Of a DNA stretch of 64,000 nt, positions 53,153-57,688 are shown in pieces. The stretch comes from Tabrizicola caldifontis (lineage in GTDB: Bacteria > Pseudomonadota > Alphaproteobacteria > Rhodobacterales > Rhodobacteraceae): positions 1 through 64,000 of the forward strand of contig NZ_SIJH01000004.1 in the NCBI RefSeq assembly GCF_004762095.1, in the 5' to 3' direction. Under the pieces are notes generated by a model, which saw nothing but the letters and a program-made list of their open reading frames with translations, had not been told where the DNA came from and made no database searches. A program made the translations under genes and the position numbers. Positions within the stretch are counted from its first letter, which is position 1. Every line of letters starts with the position of its first letter.

Positions 53153-53725
53153 TCAGGCCCCCAGTGCCTTGGCCAACCGGAAAAGCCGCGCGCGCTTCAG
53201 CAGCGGCTTCAGCCCCACCGGCTGGCCCGAGATCGCCTCGGCCTTTGCTCGGACGCAATCGACGATGCGCGCCATGACCTCGGGGTGGCGGGAATGCAGC
53301 TCCCACAGAAAGCCATCCGGGTCACGGCGCACGACGCCCTCGGCCGCAAGGACGTGGCCCGGAAAATCCTGCGCGTTGAAGGTTACGATGGCATCGGCCC
53401 CGCTGGCAATGGCGGTAGCCAGCACATGCCGGTCGTCCGGGTCCGGCAGCAGAAGCCGGGCCTCGATCTCGGGGTGCTCGCGCACCACCGCGCGCGGAAA
53501 CGCTGCGCGAAGGACCGCAGCCTCGCCCGCAGCCAGCGCAGAGGCAGCGGGACCAAGCTTTGCCGTTGCCAGCACCCATTCCCGCAGGATGCGCTCGGAA
53601 AAGACCGGCTGGAACAGGCCGGCCTCGGCAGCGCCTTGAAACAGTTCCCGCAGCACGGTCGGGTAAAGCACACAGGCGTCCAGCACGGCCCTGATCGGGG
53701 GGGCGGCAGCGCCCATACTAGCCAT
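53153..53725 (-). CDS. PIN-domain protein
   Basis: This 190-residue protein is of the PIN_3/RSP type, possibly a metal-dependent RNase. The acidic residues appear in VLDACVLYP, LREWVLATAK, PDPDDRHVLATAI and GADAIVTFNAQDF. Its start overlaps the end of the RlmI-like gene by eight bases (53718-53725); ATG 53716 is an alternative. No typical antitoxin is adjacent, so a TA role is not supported by context. It is convergent with the M48 gene. Confidence 0.75.
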   Translation of the reverse strand: MASMGAAAPPIRAVLDACVLYPTVLRELFQGAAEAGLFQPVFSERILREWVLATAKLGPAASALAAGEAAVLRAAFPRAVVREHPEIEARLLLPDPDDRHVLATAIASGADAIVTFNAQDFPGHVLAAEGVVRRDPDGFLWELHSRHPEVMARIVDCVRAKAEAISGQPVGLKPLLKRARLFRLAKALGA

Positions 53726-54950
53726 CCAGCCGGAAGAACAGCGCCTTGAGGTAAGAGGATTCCGCCAGTTGCGGCAGAACCGGGTGGTCGGGGCCGGCAA
53801 AGCCGGTGTGGATGATCTGCGCCCGACGCCCGCCGCGCCCGATGCCGCGCGCGCTGGCGTTGCGGAAGGCGGTCAGATCAGCGGCATGGCTGCAGGAACA
53901 CAGCACCAGAAATCCCCCCGGGGCGACCAACGGTGCAGCCAGCCGGGCGATGCGTTCATAGGCCCGAAGGCCCGCTTCCAGCGCCGGCTTGGCGGGCGCG
54001 AAGGCCGGCGGGTCGCAGATCACCAGATCGAAACGCGCGCCCTCTGCGCCCAGCGCCTCCAGAACCTCGAAGGCATCGCCCTGGCGGGTTGACAGTCGGT
54101 CGGCAAAGCCGGCTGCCGCGGCCCCCTGCCCCGCGAGGCCCAGGGCGGCCGCAGAGGCATCCACCGCGAGGGCCGAGGAGGCACCTGCGGCCAGCGCCGC
54201 AAGCGCAAAGCCGCCGACGTGGCTGAACACGTCCAGCACCCGCGCGCCGCGGGCCAGGCGGGCCGCAAAGGCATGGTTCGGACGCTGATCGAAGAACAGG
54301 CCCGTCTTCTGCCCACCCATCACGTCGGCCATGTAGAGCGCCCCGTTCATCGGCACCGGGACCGGGCCTTGTGGCACGGGGCCATGCACGACCGCAAGCT
54401 CCTCGGCCAGGCCTTCCAGCCCCCGTGCCCTGCCCTGTCCGTTCTTGACGACGGTGCGGACGCCCGTGACTGCAACAAGGGCAGCGACAATGTCCGACAG
54501 CGCGGTTTCTGCCCAGGCGGCGTTGGGCTGGACCACGGCGACATCACCGAACCGGTCGATGATGACACCGGGCAGACCGTCCGCCTCGGCATGAACCAAC
54601 CGGTAGAAGGGTGCGTCGAACAGATGTTCGCGCAACGCCAGCGCCCGGACCAGCCGCGCCTGGAACCACGCCCGGTCCACCACGGCCTCGGGGTCGCGGT
54701 CCAGCACCCGGGCGATGATCTTCGACCGCGTGTTGACGGTGACAAGGCCCAGCGTGCGCCGGTCGCCGTCTTCCAGAACCGCCAGCGTCCCGGGCGGCAA
54801 GGCCTGCGTTCGCCGATCGGTCACCAGTTCGTCAGCATAGACCCAGGGAAACCCGTGGCGGATCGCCCTCGCCTCTGCCCGGGGCTTCAGGCGGACGGTC
54901 GCACGACGACCGGTTTGCAGAGGGGGCGGGTTCAGGTTATCGTCGGTCAT
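53718..54950 (-). CDS. Class I SAM-dependent rRNA methyltransferase, RlmI-like
   Basis: This 410-residue enzyme methylates a cytosine C5 in 23S rRNA if it is RlmI-type. It has an N-terminal PUA-like region (RATVRLKPRAEARAIRHGFPWVYADEL, quoted in part), the SAM site VLDVFSHVGGFALAALAAG, and the catalytic region DLVICDPPAFA with cysteines in FLVLCSCSHAADL. The ATG at 54950 starts a typical length. The PIN gene overlaps downstream. Confidence 0.88.
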   Translation of the reverse strand: MTDDNLNPPPLQTGRRATVRLKPRAEARAIRHGFPWVYADELVTDRRTQALPPGTLAVLEDGDRRTLGLVTVNTRSKIIARVLDRDPEAVVDRAWFQARLVRALALREHLFDAPFYRLVHAEADGLPGVIIDRFGDVAVVQPNAAWAETALSDIVAALVAVTGVRTVVKNGQGRARGLEGLAEELAVVHGPVPQGPVPVPMNGALYMADVMGGQKTGLFFDQRPNHAFAARLARGARVLDVFSHVGGFALAALAAGASSALAVDASAAALGLAGQGAAAAGFADRLSTRQGDAFEVLEALGAEGARFDLVICDPPAFAPAKPALEAGLRAYERIARLAAPLVAPGGFLVLCSCSHAADLTAFRNASARGIGRGGRRAQIIHTGFAGPDHPVLPQLAESSYLKALFFRLDG

Positions 54951-55027: not shown

Positions 55028-55056
55028 TTGTTAGCGCTAACAGCAGTTGCTATATC
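55028..55056 (+). promoter_or_regulatory. edd promoter with LacI-type operator TGTTAGCGCTAACA
   Basis: A perfect 14-base palindrome (55029-55042) of the kind recognised by LacI/GalR-family repressors overlaps a good promoter: TTGTTA (55028-55033), 17-base spacer, TATATC (55051-55056). The palindrome covers the -35 and spacer, so binding should block polymerase. No repressor gene lies in this window. Confidence 0.75.
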
Positions 55057-55083
55057 CCCGACAGCCAGCCGCCGGAGGATCCT

Positions 55084-56889: not shown

Positions 56890-57040
56890 CGCCCCGGGCC
56901 CGCCTACCCCCTCGCTGTTGGCAGGAGTACCTGGAAACGAGCATGACAGCATTGCGCACCCGGATTGCTGCTTGCCAGAATGCTTCCGCCGACGGCACCC
57001 TGACTTGCCACCCGCGCCGATCGGCGCAGAAAGGGAACCG

Positions 57041-57688
57041 ATGACCCCCGCAGAACAATCGCTGAAGGCCGCCGAGATCTGCCGTCTGGCTCCGGTCGTG
57101 CCGGTTCTGGTGATCGACGATCTCGCCCACGCCCGCCCCCTGGCCGAGGCGCTGATTGCCGGTGGCCTGCCAGCGCTGGAGGTGACGCTGCGCACGCCCT
57201 GCGCGCTCGACGCGATCCGTGCCATGGCCGAAGTGCCAGGCGGCGTGGTCGGGGCCGGCACCCTGCTGACCCCTGCCGATGTAAAGGCCGCGAAGGCCGC
57301 TGGTGCGACCTTCGGTGTATCGCCGGGCGCAACCGACCGCCTGATCGCCGCCTGCCAGGACGAAGGCCTGCCGCTTCTGCCCGGTGCGGCGACGGCATCC
57401 GAGATCATGGCCCTGCTGGAAGTGGGATATTCGGTGCAGAAGTTCTTCCCCGCAGAGCAGGCGGGCGGCGCGGCATATCTGAAGGCAATCGGCGCACCCA
57501 TTCCGCAGGTCAGCTTCTGCCCTACCGGGGGGATCAGCCTGAAGATCGCGCCCGACTATCTGGGTCTGAAGAACATCCTCTGCGTCGGCGGCAGCTGGGT
57601 CGCCCCGAAAGAGGCGATGGCGCAGGGCGACTGGGCGGCGATCACCATGCTTGCCCGCGAGGCCTCCGCCCTGCCCCGCAGCTCTTGA
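57041..57688 (+). CDS. eda: KDPG aldolase
   Basis: This 215-residue aldolase cleaves KDPG to pyruvate and glyceraldehyde 3-phosphate. The class I active site is visible: catalytic Glu in LEVTLRTP, Schiff-base Lys in VQKFFPAEQ, and FCPTGGISL. AAAGGGA stands before ATG 57041. It is likely co-transcribed with edd; the 151-base gap shows no terminator. Confidence 0.95.
   Translation: MTPAEQSLKAAEICRLAPVVPVLVIDDLAHARPLAEALIAGGLPALEVTLRTPCALDAIRAMAEVPGGVVGAGTLLTPADVKAAKAAGATFGVSPGATDRLIAACQDEGLPLLPGAATASEIMALLEVGYSVQKFFPAEQAGGAAYLKAIGAPIPQVSFCPTGGISLKIAPDYLGLKNILCVGGSWVAPKEAMAQGDWAAITMLAREASALPRSS

Follow-up and report, generated by a model that had tools for sequence, protein, structure and literature searches.

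In the passages of PMC4052901 that deal with it, the LacI-family regulator GapR is predicted to control edd-eda, zwf-pgl-pgi, gapA, gapB, pycA, pckA and scrK, as well as its own gene in five of 13 genomes; the GapR gene is given there as RSP_1663, 'in Rhodobacter capsulatus'. A passage of PMC5507952 cites Ravcheev 2014 together with Imam 2015 for CceR and has it sensing gluconate-6P, and the effector is likewise 6-phosphogluconate in a passage of PMC4419725. This joint citation and the matching regulons indicate that CceR is the same protein as GapR. Deletion of cceR in P. denitrificans supports both repression of glycolytic enzymes and activation of gluconeogenic enzymes, as described in part of PMC11323563. 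Other known systems are similar in some respects. PckR of Rhizobiales is a dual regulator, also of the LacI family, that acts on Entner-Doudoroff and gluconeogenesis genes, but it is non-orthologous to GapR and has another motif according to a passage of PMC4052901. GluR of Caulobacter exerts LacI-family control over zwf-pgl-edd-glk, with gluR directly behind its target operon (same source, in part). HexR of gammaproteobacteria regulates Entner-Doudoroff genes and responds to an intermediate of the pathway, but is of the RpiR family and not of the LacI family, as a passage of PMC5507952 states.

Here we describe an operator before edd in a window of 64,000 nt (the whole stretch of DNA that was analysed) from Tabrizicola caldifontis. 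It is very probably a new instance of the already described GapR/CceR system, a global LacI-family regulator by which Rhodobacteraceae switch between the use and the synthesis of sugars, and this specific operator would assign a so far unstudied Tabrizicola-like genome to the CceR system. Shared with the GapR/CceR regulon are a LacI-family regulator unclustered with its targets, a palindromic operator, and the targets edd-eda, zwf-pgl, gap, pyc, scrK and the regulator's own gene. The published motif is 20 bp long, whereas nearly all the information here falls within 13-14 columns, and a DUF1127-like ORF and pfkB, found here, are absent from the target list in the passages of PMC4052901. The arrangement of GluR was not found, as eda follows edd and the contig carries no LacI-family gene. 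The LacI-family GntR gluconate repressors are similar in that their NCBIfam model (NF052440) is the best match of the CceR-like protein of this genome (E 7.8e-87), but membership was rejected because the score of 291.4 bits is below the curated cut-off of 400.

The operator and the putative edd promoter

The initial annotation had pointed to a palindrome overlapping the -35 element and spacer of a promoter TTGTTA-17-TATATC, and this was borne out at the positions given in Table 1. TGTTAGCGCTAACA is a perfect 14-nt palindrome with CG as its central pair, lies 41 nt 5' of edd and is present as a single copy in the window. Its symmetry ends exactly at 14 nt. Perfect palindromes of this length are fairly common, with five in the window, and the word itself is rare, one match at up to two mismatches being found in the window against 0.05 expected. 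The spacer between the two hexamers is 17 nt long. The putative promoter agrees only moderately with the E. coli-type consensus (4/6 in each hexamer, 8/12 in total). A generic sigma-70 scan built on this consensus did not list an edd promoter, because the scan needs 9/12 and a final T. Most of the alphaproteobacterial sigma-70 promoters examined in PMC8407463 lack the final T of the -10 element. We take the empty scan as weak evidence against a strong edd promoter, to be weighed alongside the conserved geometry described below.

Table 1. Features at the edd locus, and the nine places in the genome that match the motif with up to two mismatches
Feature	Position in window	Strand	Basis or remark
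RNA methyltransferase, RSP_2647 family, divergent	53718..54950	-	NF046099, above cut-off; start from translation
Putative -35, TTGTTA	55028..55033	+	five bases common to the operator
Operator TGTTAGCGCTAACA, putative CceR/GapR site	55029..55042	.	sequence and conservation before edd
Putative extended -10, TGC TATATC	55048..55056	+	TG at 55048-55049, TATATC at 55051-55056
GGAGGA, likely edd ribosome-binding site	55074..55079	+	read from sequence
edd, phosphogluconate dehydratase, 601 aa	55084..56889	+	TIGR01196, E 2.3e-291, above cut-off
eda, KDPG aldolase	57041..57688	+	PF01081, E 7.3e-69; TIGR01182 above cut-off; start from translation
Site 1, before edd			exact
Site 2, before LacI-family (CceR-like) gene			contig 3; one mismatch
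Site 3, before pyc (pyruvate carboxylase)			divergent 792-aa ORF on the opposite side
Sites 4 and 5, before two adjacent gap genes
Site 6, before small ORF behind the second gap			one mismatch
Site 7, before zwf-pgl
Site 8, before fructokinase-like (scrK-like) PfkB gene			protein below curated fructokinase cut-off
Site 9, before hexose-kinase pfkB

The start codon of the divergent methyltransferase is about 78 nt away from the operator. We infer that edd and eda are co-transcribed, the eda start lying about 151 nt past the end of edd. This gap (56890-57040) is long for an operon, and eda might have a promoter of its own.

Conservation before edd and co-occurrence with CceR

For the family we used a sample of 120 genomes, one per genus, and read 105 edd upstream regions. 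Eleven genomes (G003, G016, G049, G067, G078, G083, G091, G092, G094, G099 and G100) were left out as they had no true edd, the match being at the level of other dehydratases, and four more (G018, G026, G063 and G105) as their edd match was truncated or split. The region read from G118 comprised 198 nt only. Shuffled palindromes up to five mismatches from the motif were removed from the controls. The best match within 300 nt before edd was exact in 8 of the 105 genomes and had one mismatch in 50, two in 15, three in 7 and five or more in 25. Thus, a site with up to two mismatches was present in 73/105 genomes, as against a mean of 0.11 and a maximum of 6 for 186 shuffled palindromes; with up to three mismatches, 80/105 compared with a mean of 1.04 and a maximum of 15 for a second shuffled set. 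The match in G025 (three mismatches, at -268) is not an edd site, since it lies over 200 nt upstream, within zwf, and that in G001 was not counted as a site, being inside edd. In G046 (C4:1287817-1289617), edd appears as two overlapping matches, maybe because of a frameshift or faulty assembly.

Among named relatives, the site before edd was exact in Tabrizicola aquatica and T. flagellatus, had one mismatch in Rhodobacter sp. SW2 and Maritimibacter alkaliphilus, and two in R. capsulatus. The Rhodobacter sp. SW2 site has the same place and score as that of sample genome G102, which is probably the same genome. The expectation that the motif should stand before edd in close relatives therefore held, both in the 73 of 105 genomes and in these five. 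Over the whole records, motif places with up to two mismatches numbered 5 against 8 for the control in R. capsulatus and 12 against 3 in T. flagellatus. The central CG pair was invariant in 73/73 sites; according to PMC4052901, in the part dealing with LacI-family motifs, a CG centre occurs in 1173 of the regulators studied and an even palindrome is usual. The inner six positions of each half-site were about equally conserved, at 1.4 to 2.0 bits, in sites preselected by palindrome likeness, and the outermost pair was unequal (1.06 vs 0.17 bits). Such preselection favours symmetry.

Presence of the site was then compared with that of the regulator, an edd site being a match with up to three mismatches within 200 nt upstream and an orthologue a protein of at least 65% identity. 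The site was found in 79/92 genomes with a CceR orthologue and in 0/13 without (Fisher 7e-10, overstated as relatives are not independent). Operon layout is a confounder here, since edd lies directly behind zwf or pgl in 17 of the 26 site-less genomes and in none of the 79 with a site. After removal of those 17, the site was present in 79/84 genomes with CceR and 0/4 without (p 5e-5, overstated by kinship). For 20 of the 26 site-less genomes (all except G004, G013, G014, G039, G054 and G086), reading was extended further upstream. Nine of the 13 CceR genomes that are site-less at edd had a site with up to two mismatches before the zwf, gap-zwf or gap leading into edd, the gap-like stretch being partial in one of these nine, G031. 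In G069, G043 and G080, which have CceR, no site was present in the stretch read, and likewise none in G093 within 775 nt. Of the seven orthologue-less genomes read further upstream, only G109 had such a site; G001 and G025, with the matches inside edd and zwf noted above, are among the seven, and the stretch read in orthologue-less G076 stops short of the zwf start. In G109 (L286), gap-zwf-edd has a gene for a 52% CceR-like protein as its divergent neighbour, and a two-mismatch palindrome lies in between. This genome, which lacks the true orthologue, may have a local variant of the system.

Counted over whole genomes at up to one mismatch, the motif had 239 places and the reversed control 71 where the orthologue is present (102 genomes), compared with 11 and 15 where it is absent (18 genomes). 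An exception is G083, which has neither CceR orthologue nor edd, yet shows four one-mismatch places against none for the control.

Geometry was examined at the 79 edd sites. A TA dinucleotide occurred at +22 from the operator start, the offset seen in the window, in 38/79 sites, at +17 in 17 and at +18 in 14; offsets 14, 15 and 19 had it in 8, 6 and 7 sites, respectively, and each of 16, 20, 21 and 23-39 in 0 to 3. TGNTA at +19 was present in 29/79. By simple rules, 34/79 sites, among them that of the present genome, fell into the register of the window, in which the operator bases TTGTTA form the -35 element (register A), and 10/79 and 12/79 into two registers (B and C) with the -35 element just before the operator and the operator filling the spacer. 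Thus, 56/79 fit one of the three registers and 23/79 none. From the preferred distances to the putative -10 element it follows that a bound dimer should block RNA polymerase; judged from the sequence, a dimer bound in register A, B or C would cover the core promoter. The 79 operators suggest that the register of a repressor site within a core promoter can vary, with one register in which the site also serves as the -35 element.

The regulator, its other sites and competing explanations

The genome contains eight LacI-family genes, none of them on the 230-kb contig carrying edd. The absence of an adjacent repressor gene was thus confirmed, the idea of a distant regulator is supported, and a CceR-like gene was found on contig 3, from about base 129798. 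Its product has LacI HTH and sugar-binding domains, and a one-mismatch operator lies upstream of the gene itself. Orthologues of at least 65% identity are present in 102/120 genomes of the family, the next listed matches being at 57% or less. Among the matches listed, the closest CceR is that of T. flagellatus (93%), and the R. capsulatus orthologue is 77% identical. Fetched loci were the best 80 of 566 confirmed; R. sphaeroides, to which we take the tag RSP_1663 to belong, was not among these by name. In these best 80 of 566, the recognition helix VSEMTVSR was present in 80/80, and a site with up to two mismatches lay within 350 nt upstream of the matched start in 49/80, compared to a mean of 0.03 and a maximum of 1 for 144 shuffled palindromes. 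Based on family-wide presence and regulon content, the contig 3 protein is probably the CceR/GapR already studied.

We scanned the genome (3.48 Mb, 53 contigs) with the motif and, as control, with the reversed motif. The only exact copy of TGTTAGCGCTAACA is that before edd. With up to one mismatch, the motif was found at 5 places against 0 for the control, and with up to two at 9 places (Table 1) against 4, a control count by which chance could supply some of the weaker sites. The genome search for the 14-mer proposed by the initial annotation thus returned a regulon-like set of sites, together with a LacI-family gene bearing its own. None of the nine places is upstream of fba, eno, pykA, tal or mdh. 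Two three-mismatch sites lie 20 nt apart before pckA (L291), 243 and 263 nt before the start of the Pfam match. At the first gap gene (L020:5156-5188), two CceR-type sites start 19 nt apart, the second with three mismatches.

We conclude, with a probability of about 0.92, that the palindrome is a CceR operator, through which CceR represses edd-eda and from which it is released by 6-phosphogluconate. The LacI-family operator with a distant regulator first proposed for the edd promoter is thus supported, and that regulator is one already described as GapR/CceR. For Tabrizicola, dimer binding, repression and effector are presumed, the repressor role and effector by analogy with the literature on relatives. 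Under low sugar flux, CceR (GapR), a LacI-family dimer encoded on contig 3 and so away from edd, would bind the palindrome, cover the -35 element and spacer, and exclude RNA polymerase. Build-up of 6-phosphogluconate, the substrate of Edd, should then make CceR release the site, and edd-eda would be transcribed. CceR would also act on zwf, gap, pyc, pfkB, the fructokinase-like gene, its own gene and perhaps pckA.

A different protein might bind the same site. The genome encodes a paralogue on contig 10 (L024:1305-2330) that is 46% identical to the CceR-like protein, carries the similar helix VSESTVSR and has the same GntR model as its best NCBIfam match. Binding mainly by this paralogue, or by both proteins, is nevertheless improbable, since matches at a like distance from CceR (44-57%) are listed in 12/120 genomes, whereas the edd site is common in the family and goes with the CceR orthologue. 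The paralogue also adjoins a gene for an NAD-dependent epimerase and, by eye, an ABC-transporter ATPase-like ORF, as for a local regulator, and it is probably a local sugar regulator. Moreover, the one helix residue at which it differs from CceR is one that sets specificity in LacI. That the palindrome arose by chance and is conserved merely as a promoter part might be argued from the five perfect 14-nt palindromes in the window and the five operator bases that double as the -35 element. However, we give this next to no credence, as the word recurs before other pathway genes, control palindromes do not recur before edd, and the inner six positions of both half-sites are about equally conserved (the outermost pair is not, and preselection favours symmetry).

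The sign of control was also considered. In favour of activation, CceR activates gluconeogenic enzymes, so that both actions are possible for one protein (PMC11323563, in part), and the weak pckA sites are far upstream. Activation of edd is still very unlikely, even more so than binding by the paralogue, because the operator overlaps the -35 element and spacer, three such registers account for 56 of the 79 sites, and CceR represses glycolytic enzymes in P. denitrificans as described in that part of PMC11323563. Repression of edd-eda by CceR remains our preferred reading.

A small DUF1127-like protein as a possible further target

The small ORF behind the second gap gene (L020:7731-7901; contig C34, about 155730-155900) encodes 56 aa and has a one-mismatch CceR-type site. 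Relatives of it were found in 46/120 genomes, and 30 of these loci were read. In 17/30, a gap gene of the same orientation lies no more than 1.5 kb upstream. An operator was present within 200 nt upstream of the small gene in 16/30 loci at up to two mismatches and in 21/30 at up to three, and 9/30 had none within that distance even at three mismatches. For 293 shuffled palindromes, the corresponding values were a mean of 0.03 and a maximum of 1 (up to two mismatches) and a mean of 0.17 and a maximum of 3 (up to three). We therefore lean towards the view that the targets of CceR include a conserved small DUF1127-like protein (49-57 residues) whose gene often follows gap.

Such a target is not mentioned in the passages concerned of the CceR/GapR literature and is possibly new; among the matches listed in a literature search on DUF1127, CceR and GAPDH, no paper treating DUF1127 and CceR together was found. 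A passage of PMC12501420 describes DUF1127 proteins as binding either RNA, as does CcaF1 of R. sphaeroides, or the kinase PhoR. If control by CceR is true, a sugar-flux switch would be coupled to a type of small protein with a role in RNA turnover or phosphate signalling in relatives. The copy in this genome, first labelled DUF1127 by eye, was rejected as a member of that family, its 17 bits being below the Pfam cut-off of 23.3. Of the 30 sequences, 10 were tested, and 7 of these 10 gave a DUF1127 match at E up to 0.1, the best being 4e-4.
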